Shown piece by piece: positions 32,574 through 64,000 of a stretch of DNA of 64,000 bases. This DNA is from Paramacrobiotus metropolitanus (Eukaryota > Tardigrada > Eutardigrada > Parachela > Macrobiotidae), in the NCBI RefSeq assembly GCF_019649055.1, contig NW_026570252.1, forward strand, positions 1,219,028 through 1,283,027, in the 5' to 3' direction. The notes beneath the pieces were generated by a model that saw nothing but the letters and a program-made list of their open reading frames with translations, did no database searches and was not told the DNA's origin. Made by a program: the position numbers and the translations under genes. How positions within the stretch are numbered: position 1 is the stretch's first letter; each line of letters opens with the position of its first letter.

Positions 32574-35433
32574 CTACTGCGTGCTGTTCTTAGGAGAAAC
32601 CAGCAGCGTCGTCGTCTGCACGACCCATTCATGGAGGTACTGATGCGGCCGGAACCAGCACTGGACGTATCCTTCATCGGCCAGTCTGACGGCCCGAAAG
32701 TAGAGTCTAACGTGTTCCAGCTGGCCCGGGCTGTTGACGGACCCTCCCAGGTAGTATGGCTCGACGTCACGCGGTCCTTTCGTTCTGGGCACCAAACTCC
32801 GGTAGGCAGCCTCCCAGGGACCTTCCACGACGCGGCCATTGTGGACCCAGAGCAAATGGTTGCGCAGTCCGAAGAAGACGTCTTCCGGTACGGGCAGCCG
32901 GATGCTAAACGGCACCGCGACGGCCTCGCCCTCGGTGGCGGTCACAGCGAGCGGATCGGGCGCGGCGAAGACCTCGCTGCGGTGCGTGATCAGCGGCAGG
33001 AGCAGGAAGCGCTGCAGGACGCGGCGCTCCGTATTGTACTCGGGGCCCTGCGGCTCGATGACGCAGCGCACGTTGCCCCCGGAACGCATGGTGACGTTGC
33101 GGACGACGAGAATCAGGGTGGTGTCAACGCGGGAGAAGTTGTAGGTCTGCCCCGTGGTGTCGCCGTCCCGCAGCGCTTGCGGCTCTTCCGCTTCGTAGAC
33201 GGGCCAGTCCTGGTGCAGCCAGGCCACGTGGCGCCAGTCGACGGACGCGGGAACGTTGCAGATAAACGTCGCGTCCTCCCCCAGACGCGGCCGGGACACC
33301 ACGCTGTCCGGTGGAATGTCGCTCGGAACCAGCCCGGTCAGGATGATGCGGTCGTCCTGTCGGTTATTCAGCAACGCATCCGCCAGCATGTCGCTCACTA
33401 TCAATTAACAGGTCTGTCAGCTTTATTTTACGAGTATTACGTCTGCTTATCCCATTCGGGGCACGTTGCTTAAAGAAAACACAATCGGCATTCGGCAAGT
33501 CCTTGCGCAGCGGCTGCGCACCACCAGTCGTACTCTGTTGCGGGTAGCTGAACAAAATGCCCGTCTGGTTTATCAAAGTGCGCTGGCTCAGTGGGAGCTG
33601 AATTGTGGGAGATCATGATAAATTTCTACACAATTTCACTTGGCCTCCTTGGTAACGAGCCTGTTTCAATTACCCAAACTAAAGTTTGTTGTTTTTTACT
33701 AGTCGATAAAATCCTCTATGGAACGGGACTAAAACGTTTACGGTAGCGGCAGATGGTTCGCGGGAAACAAATCAAAAGCGGAGACAGCTATTTTGTTCAG
33801 CCACCCGGCCCACCGAAACCTGACGCGTGGTTATTGTAAGAAACCTCGTATTTTGTACATTTCTAAAAATATTATTAAAATTTCATTCACACAACTTATT
33901 TTAAAGTTTAAAAAAAAATGCAAAATCCTGATGCGCTGTGAAAAGGGGGATATTATGGGGAATATTCGAAGCAAATCGGCCCATAACGAGGCTTTTGGTA
34001 CGCCGATTTGTACGGTGTCTGGCGGCTTCTGCGACTTCGGCAGTCGGAGTTAGAAGTTGCGGGTTTCTCTGTCTTACCACAGGGACTGGGCTCAGTGTTG
34101 AGGGACGTACCTAGCAACGCTGCCGCAACATACGGCCATCCTTCTACCATATTCAGAAAGTCAGGAGCGGACCGGATCGGTGTCGGCATCAGTGGTTTAC
34201 TGCAGTATTTGCAGGAGTACTCCTCGACACCGTGACCGCAGCTATCCAGAGCTTCACGATTCTACAGACAGCGATAATACGGTGCGCCAGCAGGAGAACT
34301 ACGCGTTCGCTCTGTGTCTGTTCGTGTGCTGTCATACAGACTGTACGTAATACCGTGGCCATAGGACTACCGCTTAATTTAAGGATAGTGTAAATATTTA
34401 CACATTGATCGCCCCATTTGCAGAGGATGGTTTTCTGCTTCCCTATACCTGCGCAATTAACCAGCAGTATAGCTGCCGAACGCGAGCTATTTAAAAAGTG
34501 CCGGGATAAGCACGTGTTTCTGTGGGCCTACGATGACTTCCCGGCGTAGTTTACAATTAGCCATACGGCTCCCAACCGCCACAGGGCGCCATCCTGACGA
34601 GAATCGTGCATACGAGTTCTGGGCCTTCTGGCAAAGAAGCAACCATTAAACCAAGAGGCTGCGTTAGGTGTACAACAGTACAAGTAGCCGCAAGACAGAG
34701 GGGGCTGCTATTTGTTCACTGCAGTCTGAGAATCTAGCTAAAAGTCATGTTATGTAATGTAGCTCGTGGCACGAATGTTACATATATAATGTTATGTAGC
34801 TCGTGGCACGAGCTACATAACATTATAATTATCCCCCTGGTGTCAGAGGGGGCGCCCAGGGCGGTCACTGTCAAATTTCTCATGCGTCGCGCAGTCCAGA
34901 ATTACAGAAAATATTCAGCTTTTGTCCCAGTAAAGAATTCAGAGAGACGAAGCTGGTTTCGCTCGCAACGCCCAGCGACGCACCCCCTTTCCCGTGAAAT
35001 CACATCGAAATTAATTGAAAAATGAAAAATCGTGACAGTCTTAACTAATAACTTATTTTTATTTTCGACACACCGGCCTCGTAATAATTTTCAAAAATTG
35101 GAAATCTCGAATTGGACAGTCAAATTAACACGACGCACAGCGCGCAGAACAACGGCACAGATGTGAGCCTGAAACCCGGCGCAGTTGCGCAATCGGAGAG
35201 CCTGTTTTCCGGGAACGCGTTCCGCAGAGAATAACCAGCCCACCGCTCGCCGTAATCCAGGGGGAAAGCTATTTTTCCTGGTAGATAACTACGCAGTACT
35301 CACGGTTGGCGGGCGCTAACTGCTGAGGGGAACATCCGGCGGACAAATGAAGCTGCGGCAGAAGAAGAAGCATCAACCAGCCGAGGCACGTCGGTGACAG
35401 GCAGATAGTGCCTCTTTTCCAGCACGCAGACAT
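32574..35433 (-). CDS. Ig-like protein 2, secreted, two exons, 317 aa
   Basis: Exon 1 is 35433-35304 and exon 2 is 33397-32574; together they give 318 codons including the stop, with exact phase (43 codons plus one base, then TG). The donor is GTGAGT and the acceptor TTGATAG. Exon 1 begins with an ATG and encodes a signal peptide ('CLGWLMLLLLPQLHLSAG'). Exon 2 encodes two Ig-like domains. The first has 'ATFICNVPA', 'VAWLHQDW' and 'GNVRCVIEP'. The second has 'VAVPFSIRLP', where the paralogue has Cys at the position of Phe, then 'LLWVHNGR' and 'GYVQCWFRP', so its canonical disulphide cannot form. The frame is intact. It is the inverted paralogue of 25894-26732, about 6 kb away. Likely extracellular; partner unknown. 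Confidence 0.8.
33398..35303 (-). other. Intron of Ig-like gene 2, with possible antisense exon and a palindrome
   Basis: A 1.9 kb intron. On the plus strand an acceptor-like TTTGCAG is followed at 34426 by a 40-codon frame from ATG to TAG ('AERELFKKCRDKHVFLWAYD'), which could be a terminal exon or a relic of an unrelated gene; I cannot name it. A near-perfect palindrome lies at 34785-34827. Confidence 0.4.
34785..34827. repeat. 43-bp near-perfect palindrome
   Basis: Arms of 21 bp (beginning TATAATGTTATGTAGCTCG) with a single-base centre. A partial direct copy of the left arm, ATGTAGCTCGTGGCACGA, precedes it at about 34757. It may be a replication or repair product or a hairpin RNA source. 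Confidence 0.8.
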
Positions 35434-50267: not shown

Positions 50268-51035
50268 ACAGTCCAGCCTGCAGGGCTTTATTGGCCTGCT
50301 TTTCCCACTGCTGCACCAGCATCGACTCGCTGAAGCCGGGACGCTTCAGTTCCGCAATGAGAAGAACTTGGCGCAGGTCCTTTTTGTTGAGGACCTCGAT
50401 GGTGTTGTCGGGCGTCATGAAGCCCTCTTTGTTCTTCAACTCCGGCTGCGGGCGTACCCGGAAAAGCGGGGCGATGTTGATGAGGAGCAAGTAGAGGAAG
50501 AGCTCGTAAAAGGGCGCTTGATCGTGTGGCCCGCTGCCTCCACTTGCTTCACCCGCCGTTTCAAGAGGACGTGCTGCCGGCGGTACCAACCCCACGCCGT
50601 GGCGGCCCCTGAATGGGCCATGGCGGGACGCTGAACCGCCGTCGGCAAGGAAATCCCACTGCGGCCCATCATCAGGCTGCCCCCGCCGCTCCCGGATAGC
50701 AGCACACGCGACATTTCCCGGCCCCCAACCGTCTTCTTCTGTGCACCGGGATCCCGGTCCATCCCGTCGCCGACTCCGTGACCAGTTCCGATTCGTCTAG
50801 TGCAGCCTGATGCGGACGCGAGACCACACACGGTAGCCGCAGTTTGTGGACGGCGTCGCTGACCATCGGCTGACTGTTGACCTCGCGCACCGGGAAGCGC
50901 TAATGGGGCTCCAGGACGATCTCGCGCAGCGGTGTCCCGCATGTCTCACTGTGCTCATTCGGCATCAGCATGTCCACGACCTCGATAATGCCCTGGCCCA
51001 ATCCTTGCACTTGCTGCCTGCTGATCCCACCGTAT
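50259..51035 (-). pseudogene. Nuclease-like (PD-(D/E)XK-type) gene, 5' part (split)
   Basis: Begins after an acceptor (CATTGACAG). It reads 'YGGISRQQVQGLGQGIIEVV', 'GTPLREIVLEPH', a TAG stop near 50903, then 'RFPVREVNSQPMVSDAVHKL'. After a frameshift near 50510 it continues 'FYELFLYLLLINIAPLFRV' and 'LLIAELKRPGFSESMLVQQW', running up to 'ALQAGLCGE' at the transposon border. The acidic residues before LLIAELK and the E-x-K itself suggest the restriction-endonuclease-like fold seen in Crinkler-related and other eukaryotic proteins; this is inference. It has one stop, at least one frameshift and the transposon insertion, so it is a pseudogene or a very poor assembly. Confidence 0.55.
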
Positions 51036-52085
51036 CTGTCAATGTAGCGCCGGGTTTACAGATTTTGTACAGACTGTGATAAAAATGTACTTTCTGTAAA
51101 ACATACTAATAATTTACGAGTACTTATAATATTTACGGATTCTCCACTCTCTCCCGCTTCCTGGTCAGGTTCGTTAATGAGCTAGTAAAGGGTTGCGGTT
51201 TCCTGCGCGCGTGCCACCTCACGGAAATCAGGAACAAAACCACACAACATCGCTAGCACACAGTTTCTAAACGCTAAAATTTCCAGAAATTGTGTTGTGC
51301 AGCTCGATAAAACACGCCTGGTCAGCTTGTCGGATGAGCGTGAGAAACGGTCAGTGACCATTGTTCTCCGTTTCTGAGTGGAAAGTGCCGTAGACACGGC
51401 ACGTGCTGCACTGCTGCAGCCAATCACGGCAAAGTAATGTTGTACAGCGGCAGGGATTCAGCGCACTGACACCACTCTAATGCTAGATCCAGAATGGATC
51501 CAGGGACGGAGACAGAAACGGAATCTATCCCGTAGAGCGAGCAATACGATCTGGATGGCGAGCTATGCGGAAACACAAAACGTCGCACCGTAATTGCTGA
51601 CTTTTAATATTATTGAAAGTCTGGAGCACAGAAAATCAACAAGTGATCGGCGCAGCTCGATCGTAAAACGTAGAGCCCGTTCAACAGTGTGCAACACTGC
51701 GCAGCACGTGCTATGCCGCGCCCACTAACACAACTCAAGCCAGCCAATCAGAGGCGAGACACGTCACAGACCGTAATCCAAAGGCGTAGCGCCTAGCGCC
51801 ACGGACGTGAACGCTAGTGAGCCTCGTCTCACATGCCTCTGGGGGGATGCCGAGCTCCGTTGAGGCTGGACACACTCCCGAATCCACGAAAAGACGGTCG
51901 CCGGTGTCTGTGCGTGCTCAAAAACATCAAATTCTCTTATTCCATTTATCACATCAATTCCAAATGCACTATGTGAATTAAAGAGATCTGTATCAAATAC
52001 TATTCCATATCAATTCTAATACAAAAACAGGTCAACAGTTATAAGATCAACAAAAGTATTAATCAAATGTAGACTAGGATCCTCC
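51036..52085. other. Intergenic
   Basis: No gene recognised. GC content is moderate, and short open frames have no domain. The TGACCTTT-rich region begins just after this. Confidence 0.35.
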
Positions 52086-54517
52086 ACTTCTGACTCGTAA
52101 AGGTCACAGGTCCTGTCCACCGTTTTCCGCACTTTTGGCCTATTCCGCTCTGTTGAGCAATTCCGCGCATCCGTAGTGCGACTTTTCATCACAATCCGCT
52201 TGAGAATCAGGTGCGTATCAAGTACGACTTTAGGAATACTGCTTCATCTTTGGAATATGGTGCGTATCAATTGTACGACTTCAAAATGAGATCCATAAAG
52301 GTCATGGAGGGACGTCATATAGACCAGCGTAGTTCGCTTCCTCCCTGGTAAAGGTCATCCTTTGTTGAGATGATCCGTTGTGATGTGCGACTCGGTTTGG
52401 GTTAATGGTCCCAAAGGTCATGCGACGAATTCTAATACGGTGACTCTCTTGGGCGGTAATAATCCCAAGGTCATCCGACTTCTCTTCAAACTCTCATCAA
52501 AGGTCATGGAGGAACAGCCAATTTCTGCGGCCGTCAAGCATTTCTTCGCTTGCCTCCTGGTAAAACTTTTAAGTTGACCTTTCCGTCGCACATCCAACTT
52601 CAATATGCCTCGAGCGGCCAGAGTGCCGGCAGAGATTACCGTAGCATCTCTGATGGGGCCGGCCAACTACCGCATTAAATTTACCCCATAAAGCTTCCAC
52701 ATTAAATCTTTACTCTTGTTCGCCGCTTGTGGCCCAGCTTCCGTACGAGAGATCCGGCTTGATTACCGCTATTTCTCTCGTTGACTTATAACACTGATTC
52801 GCTTGGAGAGATTGCCGGCATAGTTTACAGCAACTCTAATGGGGAATACGGCTGACTGCCGCATCAAGTTTACCCCATTAAAATTTCCTGTTGTCTTTCT
52901 CTTTTTCGCCGCTTGTGGCCCTTTCGTATTCAAGAGATCCGGCGATTACCGTAGTTTCTCTTGCCAATTTATAACACTGAATCGCTTAAGGAGGAGAGCC
53001 GGCTAACTGCCGTAACTTGTCCCTTGGGGCCGGCTTTAGAGACCGAATCAATTTCAACCCCAATAGATGCTCCACATGATTTCTTTATCCTTTCTGATTC
53101 TGTGCTACAAACGCTGAAAACAACTAGTACACGAACGCAGTTTCAGTAATATGTTACGTGACCTTTATACTTTACCATTGCGCCTAGTTAGGCTATACCG
53201 TACTGAACTGAGACTTTCGCATTCAATTCTGATGACCTTTGGTTACTTTACGTGATGACCTTTCTCGTGCCATTTTTAAGTTCAATCGTCTCATTCTAAC
53301 ACGGTGACCTTTCACGTTTTTGACGTTTTCACCAGTTCAGATGCTCCGTCGATATTGTCAATTGCCGCATCCGTTATGACAACTCTCCACGCTTTACATC
53401 TCCGGTTCGAGAAGACTACTGGTTTCTCGTTATGTTCTGCTGTTATCATCCAATGGTGCTCCGAGCATGTAAACCGGTATGTCTTTGGCTTGTGTACCAC
53501 TGGTTTCCGGTTTCTGGGGGATAATGCCGAGTCCGCTGGTTTCGTTTCTTGGCTCTGTTTCAACAATCTTCAACTTCGCCAACGATCCGGATGATGACTG
53601 GGCCGATTTCGGCTCATTATTCTTCTCTTCTTGCGGCAAGGTCTCGTGACCTTTCGGTTTTTCCGTTCCCCGTAGCCTCTTTCAAGGATTTCTGAAACAC
53701 TTGACGCGCCGAATTGGTTTCCGCATCTGCTGCCACTTTTTCCATGGGGAGCATGACCTTTTCTTTCCCCACCTTCTTTCAAAGTCTCGTGACCTTTCGA
53801 TTGTTCCGTAGACACGGAACTCTCTTGACCTTTAGGTTGCGCTTCCTTCTCCACGGTTCGAGACGTCTTTTAACCTTTAGGCTGTTTGTCTTTTTCTGTG
53901 AAAGTCCCGCGACCTTCAGTCAGTCTGTCGCTTGACCTTTCACTTGACACTTGGTTCATTTGACATTTGACCTTTAAGTTCATTTGCGCTTAACCATTGG
54001 TTAATGAGTCGCTTGACCTTATGGTTTTCGGTTATCCAGCTTCACAACCTCGTCTGATGACCTTTCATTTTTGCTGATCCAGACCTTTTGTGACCTTTTC
54101 GCTGTTCCATTTGGATTTCTGCCGGAGTCTCTTACCCTTTCAATTGATCTTTCACTTCTTCCGCTTTTACTTCGATCGACGTTTGCACTTCATTTTGTAC
54201 TGCAGTCAGAGTCCGATGACCTTTCGACTGGTCGACAATTTCTGAAGATTCCGGACTTTCGTGACCTTTTCGTTGTTCCATTTGAATTTCGGTCGGAGTA
54301 TCTCGACTTTACGATGACCTTTCGCTTCTCTCGTATGATTCAGTCCGAGTCTGATGACCTTTCGACTGGAGGACCTTTCTGTTGACTTTTCATCCATGAT
54401 GACCTTTCTGACGTCTGTTTCGATGACCTTTTAACATTTTTGATAACTTTTCGTCAGAGTTTGGTGACCTTCCACTATACTTCGTATGACCTTTACACCT
54501 TCCGAACTTCCATACCT
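52086..54517 (-). mobile_element. 3' region of the right-hand LTR retrotransposon, TGACCTTT-rich
   Basis: Downstream of integrase in element sense. Twenty-five exact copies of TGACCTTT/AAAGGTCA lie here, in places one every 30-60 bp (53650-54500). Minus-strand open pieces at 53570-53854 ('KGHETLKEGGERKGHAPH') and 54206-54397 are highly charged, with no fold recognised; no envelope-like signal peptide or membrane segment is evident. A 3' LTR should lie here, but its limits cannot be set without the 5' copy. Confidence 0.5.
52618..53050. repeat. Tandem repeat, ~185-bp unit, about 2.3 copies
   Basis: Units starting near 52630 and 52812, and a partial one near 52985, share 'GATTACCGTAG', 'TTTACCCCAT', 'TTCGCCGCTTGTGGCC', 'GAGATCCGGC' and 'TATAACACTGA(T/A)TCGCTT'. 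The sequence is non-coding and contains no TGACCTTT, unlike both sides. Such repeats are common in LTRs or leaders, which supports placing an LTR here. Confidence 0.7.
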
Positions 54518-55930
54518 AATATCGTAGGCACACCGACAACTCGCTGACCGACATCTTGCTGACCGACAACTTGCTGACGACTATTTGCTGAACGACAAAA
54601 TGTTGACCCGACATATTGTTGAAACAACAGATCGCTGAACGACATTTTGCTGAACGACAGTATGCTGACACCGACGATTCGCTGACGACATTTTGTTGAC
54701 TGACAGAATGTTTACCCGACAACTTGCTTACTTACCAAATTGTTGACCGACATTTTACTGACCGACATTTTATGGAAATACCGACAACTCGCTGACCACA
54801 AATTCGTCCGGACGGTTTCGTCGGTTACAGGCTTCCGCGCTTCTGATAAATCCAGTAATCCGGCGCTTCTGATAAATCCAGTAATCCAGTAGTCTACTTC
54901 TCCTTTCTTCTGCTCAAGCGTGTTCGAGTGAAGTTCATCCAAAATCAACAACTCGTTCCCGCGGGCCGCGCCGCGTTTTAAATATGAAATAGTGCGCCAA
55001 ATTAAAACTCCCTTAAGTGTATCAAATTTACCTTACTTTAAAGCAATTAATTAATGCGACAGCAGTTCTAAGTTTAAATAGTGTAGACGATCTCGCGTAA
55101 AAAGTTCAGTTGCCTTGCCGGAGTTTGCTGTAATGAATTCTCAATGGGCACTGCTAGGTACTGGTCACAGTAGCGAATGAACAATACTGTTACTTTCAGA
55201 TATTTGTTTTCAAGTTGTGCAACCAGCAGGATGCTATTGTGCCGCATAATACGCGTATACGCACAATTTGTGCGTATACGCAGTAAGAAAATATCTGTTC
55301 TCTTGTAATGCAGAAACAACTTGTCACTAGCGACACAAGTTTAGCATATGATTTGAAATTTAATAGATACGCCGCAGAGCGAATACCGCCAGTAAATTAT
55401 GAATATAATATTAGTAACTATTAAGTAATAAATAATATTGACCGAGATATGAACAAGCTGGTTATTGCTTATTTTATTATGGCGTAATAAATAATAAAAA
55501 GTTATGGTTCAGTTATAACCGTCAGTCCGTTACAATATCGCTTCCTCTTTATGAAATCAACGTAAATTTCATTCACGAAATATTGCTAATGTGCGTTGAA
55601 CTAATCAGCAAATTGCTAATGTGCGTTGAACTGCTAATGAATATTGGTAATGTGCGTTGAACTGTTCAGCAAATTGTCGGTCAGCAAGTTTTCGTTTTTA
55701 CAAGTTGTCGGTCAACGAGTTGTCGATTGCCGACATTTCGCTGACCGACAAGTAAGCTGTCGTTCAGCAAATTTGTTTCAGCAAGATGTCGGTCAGCCAG
55801 TTTGTAGAAAAGCGAACTGTCGGTCAACGATTTGTCGGTCAGCAAGTTGTGGTAGTCAGCAACAAGTCGGTCAGCAAATTGTCGGTCAGCGAAATGAAGG
55901 TCATAGAGTTGTCGTGATACCAATATCGTA
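54518..55930. mobile_element. Foldback (FB-like) element with 9-bp target duplication
   Basis: Element 54527-55921 (1395 bp) is flanked by perfect AATATCGTA at 54518-54526 and 55922-55930. The ends read GGCACACCGACAACTCGCTG and, inverted, GGTATCACGACAACTCTATG. Inside each end is an array of the ~16-bp unit GCAA(A/G)TTGTCGGTCA, in opposite orientation at 54530-54810 and 55665-55915. This architecture, inverted repeats built of short tandem units with a 9-bp duplication, is that of Drosophila FB elements. The centre has a 26-bp direct repeat near 54838-54890, a possible captured coding fragment, and three copies of ATTGCTAATGTGCGTTGAAC-type units at 55584-55660. No transposase. Confidence 0.9.
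54770..54951 (-). other. Possible coding fragment inside the FB-like element
   Basis: Minus-strand frame 'LILDELHSNTLEQKKGEVDY' followed by 'SAGLLDLSEARKPVTDETVR' looks protein-like and stands in a GC-richer island than the rest of the element centre. A 26-bp duplication lies within it. It may be a host exon picked up by the element. I do not recognise the protein. Confidence 0.3.
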
Positions 55931-56053
55931 AAAAACTCCCGTTAACCTAATTTTTCGGATTAATATCTCTGCGTCCTTTAATTATCCGATCAAGGAGTTC
56001 TTTGTCGGCCGCATCTTCCACTTCACCTTTCTGGGTCAGCAACTCTGTGGGAG

Positions 56054-58678
56054 TTAGTTTCTTTTCTTCTGTTTAACCTTTCGCTCATCGATTGCTTTCG
56101 CTATATCGCGGCCCAATTGTTCAGCTTTCGATTTGACCGCTTCTATCTCCTCTTTTCTCTTTCTTATGAGGTCATTTTCATTGTCGGTAGCAGTGCGTGG
56201 TTCGAAAAATTTCGGATCGCGCTCTGGTATCTTTGCGCCTATCTGCCGTTTCGAAAGGTCATCGACGTCTCCGGTAGCAGTGCGTGGTTCGAAAAAAGGA
56301 TCTTGGTTCGGTTCAAGTTCTTTTTGCGAAGCGCGTTCGGCTACTTCATCTTCAGTTCCTGGTGACCTTTCTGCCAAATTTCCGGCTTCTGTGTTTAACT
56401 TGATTGTAACTGCTGTTTCGAAATCCTTATCTTCTTTCCTTTTTCTTCCTCTTTTCTTTGTTGGTTTATCTTCGTTTTCACTCTTGTTCATCCGAGCTTC
56501 ATCCGTTTCGGGTAGCGGAGGTGGTTCGAAAAGAGTCTCTTTTTGGGGCTTAAGCTCTGCGTCTTCATCCGGCAATGGCGGGTGCCATAACTTCAAGCGA
56601 TCGATCGAGACCACCTTCAAGTCCGCTTCTTTCTTTGGGTTTTGTTCAATAACCTCCGCTTCGTTTGCTCGCGGGAAGCTAATAATCTTCCATACCTTGT
56701 CATATTTCGATTTGAAGTCCGATTGGTTCTCTTTCTTTCCTTGTTTCGTATCCTTTGGAAGTCGTATCAACACAAGGTCGCCGACTTTGAAGTTCGGTTC
56801 CGATTTCTTCTTGTTATAGATTTCCGCGTTCTTTTCGTACGCATCTTTGATGCTACATCTCGCCACTTCTTCGGCAAAGGTCAAATTCTTTTTCATGGTC
56901 TCCACCCATTCATCTGGGGTCCCATAATCGTCTGGGATATTCGTTTTTGTGACCACATCCTCCGGCATTGTCATTTCTCTGCCGTACAGCATATAATATG
57001 CTGAATATCCGGTCGTGGCGTGTACGACTCTGTTCATCGCCGAAATGACATATGGGAGGTACTTGTTAAACTTTCTTTCATTTCCCGCTTTCAAGTATTG
57101 CGCCAATCCATCCGCAATCGTCTGCATCTGTCTTTCAACTTGGCCCTGACCTTCTGGATGATATGCTGTTCCAAATGTGTGTTTAATCTTAAACACATTG
57201 GTGACCTTTGTCAGTACTTCAGCTGTAAAGTGCCGTCCGCGATCCGTGTGTAGGATGTGCGGTGCTCCGTGAACCAATATCACGTGCTTGACGAAAACTT
57301 TGGCAAATTCTTTGGCTGTAGCCGTCTTCATTGGTACGGCAATCACGTATTTCGTCAGCTGATCGATGAACACCGCTATGTACTTGTATCCGCGTTTCTT
57401 CGTTGGTAACAACGGTCCTTTCAGATCCGCGTAAACTCGGAAGAACGGATGTCCCACTTTAATCTCTTGCAGTTTCCCGGGTGGGCACTTCCTCGGTGTC
57501 TTGCGGAATTGGCATCCTTGACAAGCGAGTATGTAATTCTTCACATCAGTACTCATTCTGTCCCAATAATAACGCAGTCTTATTGCTGACAGAGTCTTTT
57601 CAAATCCCAAATGGCCTGCAGCCTTCTCGTCGTGCAATGCGTGGATTATCGCTCTTCGCATTGGCAACGGTACTACATATGACCTTTCAAGTTTCCCATT
57701 TTTATCCTTTACTCGGTACAATATGCCATTCCATAACTGATAATGAACTTCAAATTTCGATCTCGTTTCAGCATCTGGTAGGTGTTCCAATTCGTCTATT
57801 ATCATTGCCAAGTGGGGATCTTTCAGCTGTTTGTTGCGCAACTGCAAGTTCGAGTCATCTTCCTCTTCCTCATCACCTTGCAGGTTGACAATGCGGACTG
57901 TCGCCGTACTGATTTCATTCCAATCCTTGATGACCTTACAGCGTGGTAATGGCTTATATCTCTTTTTCATCTGCTTCGGGAATCGCAACAGCTTTATCGG
58001 GCACTCGTTCAACGCCTGTGCCACTTTGTCTGTTTCCCAAAGGTCATCTCGAATTTCTACCGTTTCGTCAAGTCCGGTGACCTTTCCATTATGAGTTTCG
58101 ATATCCGCTGCAAGTCCGGTGACCTTTAAGTCACTAACGGTAGGCAACCAGCTTTTAACTCGGTTCACTTTTGCTTCCGTTTCAGCCGACTCATTCGCCG
58201 TAGCTGAGGTGACCTTTAATCGTTTTTTTCGTTGTTCCGCCATCTGTAGGAACAACTGACCAATTTCAATTGCTGGTTCTTTTGTGTCAAATTCCTTCTT
58301 ATAATCCTCGAAGTTCGGGATCTCATCAAATTCCTCTTCCTGACACGTCGGACCTTCAATTGGTGCTCTTGATAACGCGTCCGCATTGTCGCAATATTTC
58401 CCCGGTTTATATTCAATTTTGAACTGATGACCTTGTAATGCCATCGCCCATCTCGTCAGGCGCGGGTTCATTCCAACTTTATTCGTTTCCGACCTCAATA
58501 GGTTGGTCAGCGCCTGGTGATCCGTTCTTACGGTGAATTCCGCATAATCGATGAATGGCTTGAACTTTCTAACAGCAAAGACCACTGCTAGACATTCCCA
58601 TTCCGTTACACCGTAATTTCTTTCTGCTCCGTGTAAGACGCGGCTCGCGTATGCGATAGGATGTCCATCCTGTGACAA
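56054..58678 (-). CDS. pol: Ty3/gypsy-type RNase H (end) and integrase ORF, 874 aa
   Basis: Continues the pol polyprotein after a frameshift. Residues 1-75 are the rest of RNase H ('YGVTEWECLAVVFAVRKF', 'TVRTDHQALTNLL'). An HHCC zinc domain lies near residues 345-395 (H-x3-H spacing, then CQGC). The integrase core DD35E is near residues 415-515 (YADLKGP, HTDRG, GQVERQ). Then comes a GPY/F-like module ('YDKVWKIISFPRANEAEV'). The C-terminal 200 residues are low-complexity and charged, with repeats of FFEPRTAT (twice exact, and once as LFEPPPLPET). No chromodomain is seen. Integrase inserts the cDNA into chromosomal DNA. The frame is long and unbroken, so this part is little damaged. Confidence 0.9.
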   Translation of the reverse strand: MSQDGHPIAYASRVLHGAERNYGVTEWECLAVVFAVRKFKPFIDYAEFTVRTDHQALTNLLRSETNKVGMNPRLTRWAMALQGHQFKIEYKPGKYCDNADALSRAPIEGPTCQEEEFDEIPNFEDYKKEFDTKEPAIEIGQLFLQMAEQRKKRLKVTSATANESAETEAKVNRVKSWLPTVSDLKVTGLAADIETHNGKVTGLDETVEIRDDLWETDKVAQALNECPIKLLRFPKQMKKRYKPLPRCKVIKDWNEISTATVRIVNLQGDEEEEDDSNLQLRNKQLKDPHLAMIIDELEHLPDAETRSKFEVHYQLWNGILYRVKDKNGKLERSYVVPLPMRRAIIHALHDEKAAGHLGFEKTLSAIRLRYYWDRMSTDVKNYILACQGCQFRKTPRKCPPGKLQEIKVGHPFFRVYADLKGPLLPTKKRGYKYIAVFIDQLTKYVIAVPMKTATAKEFAKVFVKHVILVHGAPHILHTDRGRHFTAEVLTKVTNVFKIKHTFGTAYHPEGQGQVERQMQTIADGLAQYLKAGNERKFNKYLPYVISAMNRVVHATTGYSAYYMLYGREMTMPEDVVTKTNIPDDYGTPDEWVETMKKNLTFAEEVARCSIKDAYEKNAEIYNKKKSEPNFKVGDLVLIRLPKDTKQGKKENQSDFKSKYDKVWKIISFPRANEAEVIEQNPKKEADLKVVSIDRLKLWHPPLPDEDAELKPQKETLFEPPPLPETDEARMNKSENEDKPTKKRGRKRKEDKDFETAVTIKLNTEAGNLAERSPGTEDEVAERASQKELEPNQDPFFEPRTATGDVDDLSKRQIGAKIPERDPKFFEPRTATDNENDLIRKRKEEIEAVKSKAEQLGRDIAKAIDERKVKQKKRN

Positions 58679-60240
58679 TACCGCTCAATTCCTTCTTTAC
58701 TTGCGTCGCATTCAATGACGGTCGGTTTCGCGGGGTCGAATTTTGCCAATACTGGACCTTCACACAACAGTTGTTTCAAACTGTTGAACTCGTCTTCGTG
58801 CACCTTCGTCCAGTCCTTCTTTACTTGTTTGTCTTGTCTCAACAGCTCGTACAAATGACAAGTCTTCTGTGCATATCCCATGATGAACTTGCGATAATAA
58901 TTCGCCAGTCCGAGGAATGACCTTAACTGCCTTTCTGTTTGAGGTCGTCTGAATTCGGATACTGCGGTGACCTTTTCCGGATCCATTCTGATTCCGTCTT
59001 CACTGAGTATATGACCCAGGAATCCCATTTGTCTCATTCCAAATTCGCACTTGGTTGGCTTAATCGTGAATCCCGCTTCGACCAAGCTCATCAATACATT
59101 TCTTAAATTCTGCATGAAGATTGCCCAAGTTTTTCCGGCGAAAATCACGTCATCAATGTATCCGAAGACACAGCCTTTTCTTTTTGCCTTCGAAAGTACC
59201 TTGTCCATGCACAATTGGAATGTCGCTGGTCCGTTGCAGACTCCAAACGGCATTCTTTTAAATCGATACATTCCATCTTGCGTTACAAAGGTCGTCTTGT
59301 TGATTGACGCTGGATCCATGGGGATCTGCCAGAATCCACTTTGCAAGTCCATTTTTCCGTAATATTTGTTGCCTGCACACGCATCGAGCAACTCATCTGG
59401 ATTCGGTAACGGGTAGTTATTCTTTCTCGTTAGCTTGTTAAGCATAATGTAGTTAACACAAAATCTCGTTCCCATTGTCCCGTCGCCATTCTTTTTAACC
59501 GCTAACACAACTGGAAAGCTCCATTCGGCGTCCGACGGTTCGATCACATCTTGTGCCAACATCTCTTCTATATGCTTTGTTATGAACTTACGGCCTGTCC
59601 AACTCGTTCTGGCCGGGTTGCATTTAATCGGTTTCGCATCTCCCGTATCAATCACGTGAGTGACCCCTTTCACGTCTCCATACGGTTTCTTTGATGTCGG
59701 TAAGACCTTCCAGAATTCCCAGAACGCGTTGTGCACGTCGTTCTTTTGTTCCTCAGTCAGGTCAGGTCCTAATTTCAGATTTCCAATTATCTTTGTCAAT
59801 TCTGCTTTCGTCGTTTCGTCCACCTCTGGGTCTTCGAGTGCGTTCTTTACTGTCCCAGCGTTGACCTTTACATTTTCCATATGTTCATACGGTTCAACGT
59901 ATCCGAGAAGCTGATTTTTCTTCACGACTCGGTATTTGCTACTGTGATTCGCGATGACGATTTCAAAGTATTTTCCCCTGTGATCCGTCACTCCTGCCAA
60001 CGGTTGCACTTCAGTTTCCACTTGTGGGACCGGTGTAAACATCAACTTGTTCTGAGACGGTGCATATTTTCCCATCTTGACCTTTACCCGTGTGCAGTTT
60101 GACGGTTTCAATTTAATTCTTTGGTCACTGTAGACTTTAATCACATCTTTCGACATTCTAGCCTTTTCCACTTTCAATCTTCTGACTTTAATTTCTTTTT
60201 CTTTTTCTTCGTCCACTTCGTCATCTTCATCTAGATCCAT
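58606..60240 (-). CDS. pol: Ty3/gypsy-type reverse transcriptase ORF, 544 aa
   Basis: Reverse transcriptase with all expected blocks: 'IEEMLAQDVIEPSDAEWSFP', 'RFCVNYIMLNKLT', 'YGKMDLQSGFWQIPM', 'FKRMPFGVCNGPATFQLCMD', the catalytic FGYIDDV, 'PTKCEFGMRQMGFLGHILS' and 'RRPQTERQLRSFLGLANYYR', then the start of RNase H at 'IECDASKEGI'. A one-base frameshift there (about 58680) ends the frame and passes it to the 874-aa ORF. The N-terminal 190 residues are acidic and then basic and are not RT; they continue the long linker from 60433-61979. The shift falls inside RNase H, so it is damage, not programmed frameshifting. Confidence 0.92.
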   Translation of the reverse strand: MDLDEDDEVDEEKEKEIKVRRLKVEKARMSKDVIKVYSDQRIKLKPSNCTRVKVKMGKYAPSQNKLMFTPVPQVETEVQPLAGVTDHRGKYFEIVIANHSSKYRVVKKNQLLGYVEPYEHMENVKVNAGTVKNALEDPEVDETTKAELTKIIGNLKLGPDLTEEQKNDVHNAFWEFWKVLPTSKKPYGDVKGVTHVIDTGDAKPIKCNPARTSWTGRKFITKHIEEMLAQDVIEPSDAEWSFPVVLAVKKNGDGTMGTRFCVNYIMLNKLTRKNNYPLPNPDELLDACAGNKYYGKMDLQSGFWQIPMDPASINKTTFVTQDGMYRFKRMPFGVCNGPATFQLCMDKVLSKAKRKGCVFGYIDDVIFAGKTWAIFMQNLRNVLMSLVEAGFTIKPTKCEFGMRQMGFLGHILSEDGIRMDPEKVTAVSEFRRPQTERQLRSFLGLANYYRKFIMGYAQKTCHLYELLRQDKQVKKDWTKVHEDEFNSLKQLLCEGPVLAKFDPAKPTVIECDASKEGIERYCHRMDILSHTRAASYTEQKEITV

Positions 60241-60432
60241 TAAGTCCTCTTGTTCTGAAAGGTCACTTACACCTGAATCTTCCGAAGTCGTTGAATTGTC
60301 ACTTGAACTCGTCCATTCCGAGTCCGAATCGCTGCTCTCGTATTCTTGTGCAGCGGCTTGACCTTTGTCAGCCTTTTCAAGTGGACGCTCATCAACTCCT
60401 TCATCATCTGATGAAAGGTCACTTCCGTTTTC

Positions 60433-61143
60433 TCAAGAATCGCTAAGTTTTTTCGCTTTCGAATTTTTGAGCAGAGGCTTGTCCGTTTCCTTTGCCTTTC
60501 GCCCGTTTCGTGTAGCGACTCTCGGATGGCTCCTCGCTACTCGGATTCTTGTTGATGACCTTTCCGACTGATCAGAGTTTGACCTTTCTTCCGCCTGCTT
60601 TGACCTTTCCAAATCGTCAATCTTTTCAAGGCCCATTAATGGCTTTTCGGTCAACTCGGCCGGCGGACCTTCCTCACCGTTATCGAGTGACCTTTCCCCG
60701 TTTTTTGCCTCAGTTACTGGGTTTTGCTGTTCCTTTGATATCCTTTCCACCTCCTCTTTGAACTTCTTCCACATCTCTCCTCTGTCTGTCAACATCTGTG
60801 CGATATTGAAGGCAGATGTGTGTGATTCTTCTGTTTCATTCGATCCTCCTTCAGCTATCTCTTTAGCTGGCTCTTCCTTCTCTGTTTCTTTTGCAGTCAC
60901 CTTATCAACTTCATCCTGTTGGACCGTCTCGTAGCCTTTAGGTCGTTTGGGACCAACGAAAACACAATTTGCCATCAGCTCTTCAGTAACCCAGTCATTA
61001 CTCGGAATCGTTTCATACATGCACCATGTATCGCCGCCTCGTTCTGGGTATTCCACTCCATCTGGATCTGGTGCAAAGGTCACCTTTTTCTTTTCCATTA
61101 ACCCCGGTAACCTTCTTTTCCGGGTTACTTGCAACTCTCGCAT
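60433..61143 (-). CDS. Linker of the pol polyprotein, charged, part 2
   Basis: Frame continuing from 61979-61221 after a one-base shift near 61215, and separated from the RT frame by a single in-frame stop near 60435 and an acidic run. It contains 'KKVTFAPDPDGVEYPERGGD' near the start and then lysine/glutamate-rich sequence with several ERS or KVT phrases that correspond to AAAGGTCA octamers in the DNA. There is no catalytic motif. It lies between protease and RT, where most Ty3/gypsy elements have only a short linker. Confidence 0.6.
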   Translation of the reverse strand: MRELQVTRKRRLPGLMEKKKVTFAPDPDGVEYPERGGDTWCMYETIPSNDWVTEELMANCVFVGPKRPKGYETVQQDEVDKVTAKETEKEEPAKEIAEGGSNETEESHTSAFNIAQMLTDRGEMWKKFKEEVERISKEQQNPVTEAKNGERSLDNGEEGPPAELTEKPLMGLEKIDDLERSKQAEERSNSDQSERSSTRIRVARSHPRVATRNGRKAKETDKPLLKNSKAKKLSDS

Positions 61144-61220
61144 TTCCTTTATGTCGAATATAGGAATCTCCGCTTCAAATTTCGTCCAATATTTATCAAA
61201 TATGTCCCAGTCGTTTTCTT

Positions 61221-61979
61221 TTAGTGCTTTTTACAGAACACCACTACTGACTCATATACCGGTGTGCCGAGTCCCGTTGGAAAGATAACTGTTCTCCCTT
61301 GACCTTTGTACATGTGGTTTATGCGGAAATCCCAAAACAATTCTATTCTCGCTTCTTCCCATAGCTGTACTTCCTCGTTCATTGAGTCTATCTCTCTTTC
61401 AAGTTTCCGCTCAGTTGATACCGGGTCAAGAGGATCTTGGATTCCGTTATCCATACGTTGCTGCCAATGGTTCAGCCATTTTCCTCTCCCCGGATTGAAG
61501 TTTTTCACACATGACAACCAAGTCCGATATCTGTTCCAATGATACCGCTCAATGTGTGGCTTCCACATTTCGTTTGTCCGCATGATGCTTTTCACTTCTT
61601 TTTGGACATGACCTTTAAGATCTGCCAGAGCGGCGTTACATCTCGGCCATTCTGAAAGGTCATCTTGGGAGGCGTTTTGGCAACATTCAGTGCATTCCCA
61701 TTGTGGTTGCACTCTGCACGGATCCTCGTAATAACCGTGTCCGCAACTCCCCATTCGTTCTTCTGGAGTTAATATCCTTCGGCTCATTTGCGGGTTAGCA
61801 ACCACCTTCTCCTGTGTTGTGGTTTTCTGCTCACATTCGATTTCTGTTATACTGGCTTCGTCGGAGGATAGTTCAATAATCTCTGTCTCATTGTTCAGTT
61901 GATGACCTTTCAACTGTTCAAGCGCTTTGTTGCGGATTTCGCTCGCGAACATCTGTTCTTCTTCAGCTATTCGTTTCAA
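61221..61979 (-). CDS. Linker of the pol polyprotein, cysteine-bearing, part 1
   Basis: Frame of 252 aa with a coiled-coil-like start (MKRIAEEEQMFASEIRNKAL), an acidic region, then a Cys/His cluster ('GSCGHGYYEDPCRVQPQWEC', TECC) and a Trp-rich stretch ('MWKPHIERYHWNRYRTWLSC', 'WLNHWQQRMD'). The Cys/His cluster might bind zinc. I know no standard retrotransposon domain like it. A host-derived insertion or a lineage-specific domain is possible. Confidence 0.55.
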   Translation of the reverse strand: MKRIAEEEQMFASEIRNKALEQLKGHQLNNETEIIELSSDEASITEIECEQKTTTQEKVVANPQMSRRILTPEERMGSCGHGYYEDPCRVQPQWECTECCQNASQDDLSEWPRCNAALADLKGHVQKEVKSIMRTNEMWKPHIERYHWNRYRTWLSCVKNFNPGRGKWLNHWQQRMDNGIQDPLDPVSTERKLEREIDSMNEEVQLWEEARIELFWDFRINHMYKGQGRTVIFPTGLGTPVYESVVVFCKKH

Positions 61980-62023
61980 TATCCGTAACCTTTCACTCTT
62001 TTTATCCTTTTCTTTGGCCGACT

Positions 62024-62572
62024 TTACTCCCAGTGCCTCTGGTACTGGGATAGGCTACCCACTCTGTGTTGCCAGGTACAAGCGATTGTTTCGCTGCGGC
62101 TGTCACTTCTTTCTGTGTGGCAGCTATCTCTCAAGTGCTGGTGACCTTTCGTCATTCTCGGTAGCAGATCGAGGTTCGAAAAAGTTCGGGGTACGCTCTG
62201 GTACTCTCTGCAAATCTTTTTCTTCGATTTCATTTTCGGTAGCAGATCGTGGTTCGAAAAGGTCTTACTGACGTTTTTGGATCCAGCTCTGACGCCAAGT
62301 TCTCAACTGGTGACCTTTCATCCCTTCGTTCCCAGTGCCTCTGGTACTGGGATAACTTTACAACACATTCTTTTTCTGTGGCTCCTTGCTCACAGTTATC
62401 TGCGATCATACTTCTCCCGTCCGGAGAAATATGATCACCTCATCAAATATCTGGCGCAAACGGCTCCTTTTTCCTCTCGTTCACTTTTTGGACATTTCCA
62501 CTTTCACTTTTCTTCTCTGGTGCACTCTGGTGCCGGGATTGTCCGTTGGCTAGTCTCGTTCTGCTGCACTCG
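62024..62572 (-). mobile_element. Protease-RT linker with peptide repeats, broken frames
   Basis: Minus-strand sequence encoding, in pieces, two copies of FEPRSATEN (62155-62260, the second preceded by VPERTPN) and copies of IPVPEA (near 62040, 62330 and 62577; another at 62725 lies within the next ORF). Stops interrupt the frames. The FEPR repeats match FFEPRTAT at the far C terminus of integrase, so the same peptide repeat occurs at both sides of RT-integrase. Confidence 0.6.
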
Positions 62573-63232
62573 TCATTCCGGTGCCTCTGGTACTGGGATG
62601 ACCTTTCTCTTCCTTTGTGTCAGCATTGCCCGGTTTAGTGTGTTTTCAATCTCCTGTTGGATCAATTTCAACTGCTCAAATGTTGACAATTCTTTTTTCG
62701 CCCTCGTTTCCTTTGCCTTTCCCGGTGCCTCTGGTACTGGGATTAGCGTTTTACTAACCGTTTGAGCATTTCCCGTCTGTTTTACAAGTTCGGTGACCTT
62801 TCCGACTTGAACTTTGGCGATCGGTTTCGGGTCATCTTCCTTCTCTTCTTCGCCTTCATTATCCATTAGTACGAACTTCTTCTCCAAGAAGTCAAATCCC
62901 AGTAGCACCTGTACATCGTCACACTTCGGTCGGACGTAAAATGAATGTTCACTAGTCTTTTTCCTTAAGGTCACTGGTGCTACGCAGTAATGCGTCACCA
63001 TGAATCCTGACGTTCCACTAATTCCGTTTATCTTCACCAATCTGTCTGGTGGCAATGGGAGCATGTGCAGTCCATTCTTTTCGCAAAATGGTTTGCTGAT
63101 CAGCGACGTCTCAGCGCCGGTGTCAACATTGCGTTGACCTTTATGTCTCCCTTTCACTTCATGAGTGTACGCTTCAATTCTTTTGGGCAATTTTCCGTTT
63201 TGAATCTTCAATGTGTGTATCTTGCATTTCAC
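62573..63232 (-). CDS. Retroviral-type aspartic protease ORF
   Basis: Carries the active-site triad as DTGAETSLIS near residue 38 and a flap/second-lobe region ending 'VQVLLGFDFLEKKFVLMD', where LLGxDFL is the usual ILGxDxL-type motif. Such proteases cleave Gag and Pol as homodimers. The C-terminal part has IPVPEAPG and IPVPEAPE repeats. The N-terminal side has no Gag zinc knuckle, so Gag must lie further upstream, beyond the right edge. Confidence 0.85.
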   Translation of the reverse strand: MKCKIHTLKIQNGKLPKRIEAYTHEVKGRHKGQRNVDTGAETSLISKPFCEKNGLHMLPLPPDRLVKINGISGTSGFMVTHYCVAPVTLRKKTSEHSFYVRPKCDDVQVLLGFDFLEKKFVLMDNEGEEEKEDDPKPIAKVQVGKVTELVKQTGNAQTVSKTLIPVPEAPGKAKETRAKKELSTFEQLKLIQQEIENTLNRAMLTQRKRKVIPVPEAPE

Positions 63233-64000
63233 AGGGATTGAGATACTGGTCCCGGATCCATGTCAGGAGGCACTTGTCCTTTCGCCGGAGTACTGTGACC
63301 TTTCAGTATCTCCTCAACATCAATCCTGTGTGGCGTCAGTTCGGACGTCGTAGAATTTCTGCGGTTTTTCTTATCCGCTTGCTTCTCTGCAGCCATTTTA
63401 CCGCTGGTGACCTTTTCGTTACTGCACTTGCGGATTTGCTTTTGTGCTGTCATACCGTACCTTTAGTCACTTCGTTTATCGTCGTGGATCAATTCCTCTT
63501 TGCGGTTTTCATTTCTTTTATCTCGCAACTTTTCAATGACTTCACTTGTTATTTGGTCAGCTCGCTTCAATTCATCTGCTTCGCTATCTTTCATCTCATT
63601 TGACCTTTCATATGTAACCATATCATATCCCTTTGGGCCATCCATTCAATCACCTTCGCGGACACTTCATTGTTCGTTTTCGTCGGATCGGTTTGCGAAG
63701 ACATTCCGTCCGTCAGGCCGGTGACTTGTCATTGGCATCCTGTTGCAATGCTTGTGATAAGTCCCGTGACCTTTCAACTGCGCTACTCTGTTGCATTTGC
63801 GCCATCTCATTTGACCGTCCTTTTTGTTCATTCTGCTAAGTCCGTGACCTTTTTGCGCTTTAACAAATCCGCCAGCTGTCAACTTTTGTATGGGACTTTT
63901 CTCCATAATTCAGCGGTTTATCTTCCGGCGGTGCGTTTCGCGGGTTATCCAGGTCAGCTTGTGCATTCTTGTATTCAGTTGCATTGAATACTGGAGCAAG
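63233..64000 (-). mobile_element. Upstream part of the right LTR retrotransposon (pre-protease)
   Basis: Highly charged minus-strand open pieces (63229-63453, 63463-63645, 63667-63906) in different frames, with TGACCTTT octamers at 63297, 63412, 63601, 63768 and 63846. No capsid or CCHC motif is recognisable. It probably encodes the C-terminal part of Gag or a Gag-Pro linker; the element continues past the edge. Confidence 0.5.

Follow-up and report, generated by a model that had tools for sequence, protein, structure and literature searches.

What keeps a single octamer in dozens of exact copies along a retrotransposon, and what might read it? The question arises at the right-hand end of the window, the whole stretch of 64,000 nucleotides analysed, where the word occurs as TGACCTTT or, on the other strand, as AAAGGTCA.

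The element and its octamers

The octamers lie in a Ty3/gypsy-type retrotransposon of Paramacrobiotus metropolitanus, usually about 24 kb between its ends; the window copy runs on the minus strand from its 3' LTR to the contig end, where it is truncated (Table 1). Protease (PF13975/PF13650), reverse transcriptase (PF00078), RNase H (PF17919/PF17917) and integrase (PF17921/PF00665) follow in this order, and paired direct LTRs flank the coding part: LTR matches form same-strand pairs 17.5-29 kb apart, mostly about 24 kb, six of which enclose a reverse transcriptase match. The 5' and 3' LTRs of the three pairs compared are 99.1, 100 and 99.1% identical; LTRs from different elements are 92.4-95.5% identical. 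Comparison of the upstream frames with family models gave nothing above cut-offs, and of four pattern matches to the reverse transcriptase protein in viral contigs none was confirmed. The segment at 54485-55932 is missing from other copies and is therefore regarded as an insertion; apart from the octamer at its left border it lies outside the octamer system. The largest reading frame of the repetitive 3' region is at most 106 aa, and the sister-family locus L030 has a block homologous to the 3' untranslated block, likewise with octamers.

Table 1. Features of the window copy and positions of their octamers
Feature	Position	Strand	Basis	Octamers
3' LTR, about 359 bp, outer limits approximate	51476..51834	-	paired LTR matches	none
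3' untranslated block	51835..52560	-		5, all TGACCTTT in sense RNA: 52099, 52297, 52350, 52413, 52499
3' region, repetitive frames (KGH/KGQ repeats)	52561..54484	-		19, sense
1.45-kb insertion ending in 15-bp-unit arrays	54485..55932	.	absent from other copies	54487 (left border)
pol: RNase H C-terminal part, integrase (H2C2 + rve), tail	56054..58678	-	Pfam matches	56254, 56363, 56876, 57202, 57680, 58039, 58078, 58120, 58210
pol: reverse transcriptase (RVT_1) and RNase H start	58606..60240	-	Pfam matches	58968, 59862, 60078 only
pol between protease and reverse transcriptase; open frames 60433-61143 and 61221-61979, no Pfam match	60241..61979	-		60258, 60359, 60414, 60556, 60580, 60601, 60688, 61075, 61300, 61609, 61655, 61903
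Between open frames of the window copy	61980..62572	-		62142, 62311
Retroviral-type aspartyl protease region	62573..63232	-	PF13975, PF13650	62599, 62794, 63135
Upstream of protease, to contig end	63233..64000	-		63296, 63408, 63601, 63767, 63845

The initial annotation, made by eye, had put about 59 copies in this element and about ten in the remaining 52 kb. An exact count on the plus strand gives 59 in 52086-63900 (47 TGACCTTT and 12 AAAGGTCA) and 13 (9 and 4) in positions 1-52085. For the former stretch an order-1 (dinucleotide) Markov model expects 0.58 + 0.13, about 0.7 in total, and an order-2 model 1.2 + 0.15, which rules out chance or composition as the source; no other 8-mer is as frequent there when the two strands are counted together. 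Its density is about one per 200 bp across the visible part of the element, coding parts included, the LTRs being without it (0 in seven LTR pieces of 223-236 bp). In 20 further copies, stretches of 9-10 kb hold 16-61 octamers, an 84-fold enrichment in sense and a 60-fold enrichment in antisense orientation, and most one-base variants are enriched 0-6-fold, with TAAGGTCA as an exception at 21-fold. None occurs in the window's first 10 kb, which hold a related left-hand element, a distant relative and the sole other element compared.

Equal density throughout the genome, which would have undercut the observation, was not found: nine of ten arbitrarily placed 4-kb stretches hold 0-2 copies (five in 36 kb), and the tenth, with nine, matches a sister family's 3' portion. 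Genome-wide, AAAGGTCA occurs 42,562 times and its reversed form 15,522 times, this control being about twice as frequent as those for CAAGGTCA (6,332 versus 7,867) and TAAGGTCA (6,598 versus 9,476), neither of which is enriched. Short-spacer triplets of the octamer number 1007 against 2. Octamer arrays stand about 1 kb inside 5' LTRs, where they read TGACCTTT in RNA, and further arrays occur elsewhere, for example on contigs C1 and C2; part of the octamers sits in tandem repeats.

Spacings are irregular and without a fixed phase, although half of the gaps (29 of 58) are divisible by three, perhaps owing to frame-keeping tandem repeats. An avoidance of gaps below 21 bp, apparent in the window only, was dropped since other copies have gaps of 7, 10, 11 and 16 bp. 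The base after AAAGGTCA is C, T or A, not G, and the base before the octamer is mostly G; we know of no NR4A preference for a G preceding the word. The overall strand bias (47:12) is no more than composition, for which the order-1 model predicts 4.4:1. Orientation is nevertheless block-wise and departs from composition within blocks, the 3' block having 0 sense to 5 antisense sites where 1.9 to 1 is predicted.

Purifying selection on the octamers

Twenty further copies were aligned to the window over 56480-63980 in pieces of 18, 20, 20, 14 and 19 rows of 21, the rows left out having incomplete coverage or no match. These alignments contain 33 octamer places, 32 of which are kept in at least 70% of rows. 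Nucleotide diversity is 0.022 within octamers and 0.103 outside, the dip being exactly 8 bp wide; all 33 sites are less diverse than their own flanks, and none of 5000 permuted sets was as low. Between pairs of copies, octamers are retained at 0.92 (545 instances, 34 sites) versus 0.46 for other 8-mers. In a sister family at 63% identity, 6 of 8 octamers of one 2-kb stretch are exactly in place, compared with 7% of 8-mers (119/1701).

Octamers also persist where codons drift. At third codon positions diversity is 0.021 in octamers and 0.231 outside, which shows that it is not the protein that is constrained, as the initial annotation had argued from octamers read in all three frames, and protein constraint is excluded as their cause. 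The frames themselves bear out that reading: the 18 sense sites in open frames of the window copy within the aligned pieces start at codon position 3 (nine), 2 (five) and 1 (four), and four antisense octamers likewise lie in open frames. The constraint on the octamers is independent of reading frame.

Within octamers (264 columns) 40 changes are private to one copy and 8 are shared, while elsewhere (7126 columns) 1179 are private and 1722 shared (Fisher p 2e-9), so that private changes occur in octamers at almost the frequency seen elsewhere, whereas shared changes are 8-fold rarer. Together with LTR pairs that are 99-100% identical, this demonstrates purifying selection at the nucleotide level on octamers in replicating lineages. 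Recent common origin fails as a cause in that flanks diverged and octamers did not, and mutational protection is ruled out by the nearly normal rate of private changes. When an octamer is mutated, the change is almost always confined to a single copy (retention 0-0.03 over 17 instances of five variants). Nor did the suggestion of a self-spreading motif find support, nearly all sites being common to most copies and few newly gained. That copies of the word are held nearly unchanged amid changed surroundings suggests that some protein must read it along the element.

Candidate readers of the word

Both orientations are retained equally (0.916 antisense versus 0.924 sense, the antisense value coming from six sites only), which points to double-stranded DNA, and we infer a reading of DNA rather than RNA. 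The word is identical in its 8 bp to the NBRE, the site that NR4A receptors bind as a monomer according to PMC10419244. The P. metropolitanus genome encodes an NR4A orthologue in three exons (C45:296815-298442), with intact CEGCKG and RTDSLKGRRGRLP motifs that we take to be the P-box and A-box, respectively. Since word and NBRE coincide and the genome has the orthologue, we regard an NR4A-type nuclear receptor of the host as the putative reader. Further features of an NBRE are found as well: the exact word is used and its one-base variants generally are not, although TAAGGTCA, GAAGGTCA, AAAGGTGA and others are retained at a few sites, and there is no fixed partner half-site, the window element and the 20 stretches together holding 0 NurRE and 3 DR0-5 arrangements. 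From the proposal that the element is covered with receptor sites, the DNA-level reading and the exact NR4A monomer site therefore survive. Its other forms do not: CAAGGTCA, the FTZ-F1/ERR-type half-site, and TAAGGTCA are unsupported for lack of genome-wide enrichment, and receptor-dimer arrangements are nearly absent.

Our best explanation, held tentatively and at somewhat under an even chance, is that the octamers form a selected protein-binding array, probably read by NR4A. We hypothesise that (i) AAAGGTCA would be a double-stranded-DNA site for a sequence-specific protein binding as a monomer; (ii) this reader would be the host NR4A-type receptor; (iii) the bound array would resist silencing over the whole element body, rather than act as an ordinary promoter enhancer, and so may keep the chromatin of the long element open and transcribable; and (iv) copies with intact sites would be those that continue replicating. 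Stated more broadly, and with a probability approaching one half, the body of a eukaryotic retrotransposon, genes included, may be a selected address, made up of a single exact 8-bp word recurring about every 200 bp and read as DNA by host NR4A or by a zinc-finger protein of the element's own.

Several observations count against the NR4A explanation. The LTR pieces, where a promoter is expected, are octamer-free, and the number of sites exceeds an enhancer's needs. Block-wise orientation and the TGACCTTT leader arrays are not predicted by a symmetric DNA site. Private changes at third codon positions are somewhat fewer in octamers (9/62 columns) than outside (490/1891). Some one-base variants are retained, namely GAAGGTCA at 0.86 (4 sites), AAAGGTGA at 0.79 (3), TAAGGTCA at 0.76 (6), AAAGGTCT at 0.67 (3) and AAAGGTCG at 0.65 (5), mostly at places that are not octamers in other copies.

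The main rival, which we consider somewhat unlikely, is that a protein encoded by the element reads the word and may coat element DNA or counter silencing, in the way of VANC proteins on VANDAL elements, the octamers being its landing sites. Long forms do have a third gene 3' of pol, present in the sister family (L040, L030), where its product bears an N-terminal C-x2-C-x12-C-x2-C motif and, after it, an RS-rich stretch; the 3' ORF proteins P0121 and P0130 start with CPDC/CPHC...CWEC/CWTC. Protein matches to the 3' ORF queries (2 and 9, one shared; the nine from 8000 candidates scored) are all from P. metropolitanus, and the relatives P0124 and P0127 lie on contigs that are apparently C187 and C167, which carry window-family copies. 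The distant relative at the left end of the window is octamer-free, and VANC21 (PMC5735166) likewise has a 9-bp word dense in its own element. Against this, the 3' ORF has no Pfam or NCBIfam match above cut-offs that indicates DNA binding, no protein from the family of the window copy was found with the four-cysteine start, and agreement of the word with a known host-receptor site would be a coincidence. The window copy is without the 3' ORF (none of ten such proteins matches anywhere in the window), although such copies could be served in trans.

It is unlikely that another host DNA-binding protein, such as an insulator, chromatin or repair factor of the same 8-9-bp preference, is the reader and NR4A a mere look-alike. 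The exact word pins down a specificity and not a protein, the presence of octamers in coding DNA and their absence from LTR pieces would fit a chromatin or architectural role equally well as a receptor, and a search for the zf-C4 class found 63 scoring segments in the genome; to our knowledge, though, no animal protein class other than NR4A reads exactly AAAGGTCA as a monomer.

That the word acts in RNA we regard as very unlikely. It might be a packaging or translation tag, or engage in many-to-many pairing of UGACCUUU, clustered in the leader and the 3' block, with AAAGGUCA in coding parts. The block-wise orientation agrees with such pairing, leader arrays and 3' block being UGACCUUU and coding parts mostly AAAGGUCA; exactness would be expected when a mutation at a single site cannot be compensated, and some variants that keep G-U pairs are retained at few sites (GAAGGTCA, 4; AAAGGTCG, 5; AAAGGTTA, 6, at 0.49). 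However, the G-U-keeping AGAGGTCA and AAGGGTCA are almost only private (10 instances; retention 0.016 and 0.0), antisense octamers of the coding part are as strongly retained as sense ones at 60-fold enrichment, and a one-stranded packaging tag, as the initial annotation had considered, leaves that equal retention unexplained.

An absence of function, whether through composition, protein constraint, recent common origin, mutational protection or spread by biased conversion, may seem suggested by the relatedness of the copies, the youth of the three dated ones and the octamers within tandem repeats; it is refuted by the Markov expectation below 2, the third-position result, the diverged flanks around unchanged octamers, private mutations near the normal rate (40/264 versus 1179/7126 columns), mutated octamers being nearly always private and the age of sites common to a family at 63% identity, and is extremely improbable unless the 20-copy alignments mislead.

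Comparison with known systems and significance

Transposons carry binding sites in terminal or leader regions. In the Drosophila gypsy element, about 12 Su(Hw) sites, longer and degenerate, form an insulator array in one leader stretch; the element described here is likewise of the Ty3/gypsy type with many sites, and gypsy's are read by a host zinc-finger protein, but here one exact word is tiled over the coding and non-coding interior. The DUS/USS of Neisseria and Haemophilus, exact words of 9-12 bp, are similarly scattered in coding DNA on both strands and maintained by selection or drive for reasons other than protein function, yet they span a whole bacterial chromosome and serve natural transformation, and we know of no uptake counterpart for a retrotransposon. 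Previously known NBREs occur singly or in small numbers close to regulated genes, whereas here 59 are tiled over 12 kb of transposon, genes included. Another parallel is VANDAL21 of Arabidopsis, whose VANC21 is proposed to keep the element unsilenced (PMC5735166, PMC10398659). A short word (9 bp there) is extremely dense in one transposon family and is read as double-stranded DNA, density mattering; here too the word is dense in one family and rare in the one other element compared. In contrast, the VANDAL21 word is described as lying for the most part in tandem repeats of non-coding DNA, in a single orientation, with fast turnover and differences between families, while the octamers are dispersed, occur also in coding DNA and in both orientations, hold old fixed positions and are identical in two families. 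The reader here is putative, the element's own candidate being the 3' ORF with its four-cysteine motif and no family match.

Literature searches pairing P. metropolitanus with retrotransposons, or concerning short-motif or octamer enrichment in retrotransposons, found nothing. Among the matches listed (titles and abstract starts) for NR4A/NBRE with transposable elements, none dealt with octamer tiling, which may be in print elsewhere, and those for synonymous constraint with transcription factor sites in transposable elements and for repeated motifs in gypsy elements held nothing comparable; PMC11071193 deals with two other tardigrades.

Strong selection on a word within an element's genes, in every frame, shows that a signal at the level of DNA can prevail over the freedom of synonymous codon choice across a very long element. 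It opens a direct way to study how a giant retrotransposon escapes silencing or comes to be recognised, the host being an animal whose control of transposable elements is hardly studied. If the proposed reading is true, a protein-read DNA word on coding sequence at such density would be a new mode of recognition or protection for a mobile element. If these elements hold the genome-wide excess of the word, about 27,000 copies above its reversed form, the host would have been seeded with that many hormone-receptor-type sites. NR4A is described in published abstracts as an immediate-early stress-response factor in mammals; if it is the reader, these elements would have altered its genomic binding-site landscape in a stress-tolerant animal.

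Octamer density in the window and across the genome

Between positions 52086 and 63900 of the window, the initial annotation had put the number of octamers at about 59, and an exact count returns 47 copies of TGACCTTT and 12 of AAAGGTCA, where a dinucleotide-level model expects 0.7. The remaining 52 kb to the left, for which about ten copies had been proposed, contain 13. None lies in the first 10 kb, where the left-end retroelement sits, the gag of which has a zinc knuckle resembling that of the octamer family. Across the 170 Mb P. metropolitanus genome, in which the window is the end of one contig, the octamer occurs 42,562 times compared with 15,522 for its reverse. CAAGGTCA (6,332 vs 7,867 for its control) and TAAGGTCA (6,598 vs 9,476) show no genome-wide excess, and by comparison with their controls the reversed octamer is a high one. 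Three octamers within short spacers occur 1007 times in the genome, in contrast to twice for the control. Nine of ten arbitrarily placed 4-kb genome stretches hold 0–2 octamers; the tenth, L030, holds nine, carries the 3' gene of a second, related retroelement family and has matches near the pol of that family on many contigs. The octamer observation is real and unusually clean.

Structure of the element and retention of octamers between copies

The minus strand of the window encodes protease, reverse transcriptase (RT), RNase H and integrase domains of the Ty3/gypsy type. A genome search with window 50600-51700 as query located the LTR: the matches form same-strand pairs 17.5–29 kb apart, mostly 22–24.5 kb, and six of the pairs flank one of the RT matches listed (two on contig C55 and one each on C3, C9, C59 and C79). 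Given these paired terminal stretches and the LTR in the window, the window copy represents the 3' portion of an element of this kind, truncated where the contig stops. Element sizes fall into classes, mostly about 24 kb, with 17.5 kb on C9. Long forms carry a further gene 3' of pol. The RT-to-3'-end distance is several kb shorter in the window and C9 copies than in those on C187 or at C1:3.94 Mb, and ten proteins of the 3' gene have no match in the window copy, which, without this gene, may depend on the long forms. The two LTRs of the same element are 99.1, 100 and 99.1% identical (three elements), and LTRs of different elements 92.4–95.5%; the near-identity within pairs indicates that the copies are young and that their differences arose mostly in replicating lineages before insertion.

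Features of the element and its surroundings (C, contigs; L, stretches of the P. metropolitanus genome)
Feature	Location	Remarks
Terminal-stretch pair	C55:94302/118495	
Terminal-stretch pair	C3:979083/956913	
Terminal-stretch pair	C7:802881/827246	
3' LTR	window ~51476-51834	from the terminal-stretch search and its extension
Insertion in window copy	window 54485-55932	1.45 kb; arrays of the 15-bp unit ACCGACAACTTGCTG at both ends, inverted; foldback-like repeat
Arrays of a unit similar to ACCGACAACTTGCTG	window 30702-30743 and 30999-31157	
44-bp units GTCAAAACGCCGGCCGAATTT...	window 22610-22718 and 23550-23685	opposite orientation, ~1 kb apart; possibly another foldback element
Recurring peptides IPVPEAPG and FFEPRTAT	window 56054-63232 (minus)	through the polyprotein, also in copies; DNA repeated too
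Third gene 3' of pol in long forms (proteins P0121-P0130)	L040:477-1580; L030:1-1410	RS-rich region; no known family
Frame upstream of pol	L015:7641-8576 (minus)	repeated peptide QRSPQNGTASGN..., octamer included as read by eye
Gag-like frame, other retroelement	window 450-2933 (minus)	weak Ty3_capsid match (E 0.018); no octamers nearby
Open frame	window 7303-8463 (plus)	resembles a non-LTR (LINE) reverse transcriptase fragment, by eye only
Two paralogue-like frames	window 25893-26732 and 32574-33404	immunoglobulin-like, by eye only

For comparison, 20 further copies were used, representing 20 of the 39 other places among the matches listed, and each contains 16–61 octamers in 9–10 kb. Relative to a first-order model, AAAGGTCA is enriched 84-fold (sense) and 60-fold (antisense) in these stretches, and its one-base variants mostly 0–6-fold, the exceptions being TAAGGTCA (21- and 12-fold), AAAGGTTA (8-fold, sense) and AAAGGTCG (11.5-fold, antisense). 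In piecewise alignments (five pieces with 14–20 of 21 rows each), 92% of comparisons show the octamer of one copy unchanged in a second, and the corresponding figure for other 8-mers is 46%. The octamer sites number 34, of which 33 occur in at least three copies and 32 in 70% or more of the rows; the window copy itself lacks the octamer at two of the 33. The repeated polyprotein peptides, whose DNA word GTACCAGA has a strong retention of 0.96 between copies, might serve as recurrent sites of cleavage or docking. Since the L015 peptide repeat, read by eye, includes the octamer, tandem duplication within disordered protein may be one way in which some octamers are multiplied.

The positions reach back to the second family. 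Its member L041 is 63% identical to the window element over 1811 aligned bases and has eight octamers in 2 kb, six of them exactly on a window-element octamer; conversely, 6 of 13 window octamers in this stretch are matched, compared with 7% of 8-mers (119/1701). In the 3' block, at 62% identity, three of the six octamers of each family match exactly and one more is offset by one base in the two-family alignment.

Selection on the octamer

Diversity, about 0.10 around the octamer, dips to 0.02 across its eight positions and no further, lies below that of the flanks at all 33 sites, and was matched by none of 5000 random site sets. Protein constraint is rejected as the cause, as the initial annotation had argued from reading frames: third-codon-position diversity is 0.021 inside octamers (62 columns) and 0.231 outside (1891), and outside the open frames of the window the values are 0.021 and 0.101. 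Protection from mutation is likewise rejected, because changes private to one copy reach nearly the same frequency within octamers (40 in 264 columns) as in the rest of the alignment (1179 in 7126). By contrast, changes common to at least two copies are 8-fold rarer inside (8 vs 1722; Fisher p 2e-9). This private/shared contrast persists at third positions alone (p 8e-4), where octamers hold slightly fewer private changes (9 in 62 columns vs 490 in 1891 outside), and is weak at first and second positions (p 0.05). At places with an octamer in more than 80% of the other copies (17 instances), the mutated forms AGAGGTCA, AAGGGTCA, AATGGTCA, AAAGATCA and AAAGGCCA are nearly always found in one copy only (retention 0–0.03), indicating that octamer mutations occur after insertion and that their carriers leave few descendants. 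Upkeep of the octamer is thus by selection. Some other variants are well retained, including GAAGGTCA (0.86), AAAGGTGA (0.79) and TAAGGTCA (0.76; 3–6 sites each), mostly at places that are not octamers in other copies, and may be weaker sites or protein-constrained.

Candidate readers and a possible role along the element

Retention hardly differs between antisense octamers (0.916, with only six sites) and sense octamers (0.924), which points to reading as double-stranded DNA. Passages of PMC10419244 describe the word as the NBRE, the monomer site of NR4A receptors. An NR4A orthologue is present in the genome; its gene has three exons, and both CEGCKG and RTDSLKGRRGRLP are intact. The octamer sites are single: the window element together with the 20 stretches yielded no NurRE and three DR0-5 arrangements. 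The base after the octamer in the window element is C in 24 cases, T in 22, A in 13 and never G; G follows 3 of the 13 octamers elsewhere in the window.

The main rival to NR4A is a reader protein that the element itself would encode. The 3' ORF product has an N-terminal four-cysteine motif, CPDC...CWEC, in the two proteins seen, and every relative found is from P. metropolitanus; it is at most a putative reader. Action of the octamer in RNA is less likely, because the pairing-preserving changes AGAGGTCA and AAGGGTCA stay private to single copies, although other such changes are kept at a few places. Domains that we take to be ERR-, FTZ-F1- and RXR-like also occur in the genome, but CAAGGTCA, the half-site form linked to these receptors, is not enriched. 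A plain promoter enhancer fits poorly with the complete lack of octamers in the LTR pieces examined and with an orientation that goes by block: 51835-52560 has 0 sense and 5 antisense octamers (1.9 to 1 expected from composition), and 52561-54484 has 19 sense and 0 antisense (6.3 to 1 expected). In the RNA, the arrays that lie some 1 kb inside 5' LTRs (C7:803987, C3:978028) read TGACCTTT.

The octamer-free LTR pieces and the block-wise orientation lead us to favour an array that would act over the full length of the element, perhaps by holding it open to transcription; both the reader protein and this benefit are what we infer. The nearest published system found is VANC21/VANDAL21 (PMC5735166, PMC10398659), which, in the parts of these papers that treat its word, shares with the tardigrade element a short, dense word and reading as DNA, the latter presumed for the tardigrade. 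Unlike the tardigrade octamer, the VANDAL21 word is described there as sitting for the most part in non-coding tandem repeats that change rapidly. By its features the tardigrade octamer element is not a VANC21/VANDAL21 system, although by analogy it may work like one.
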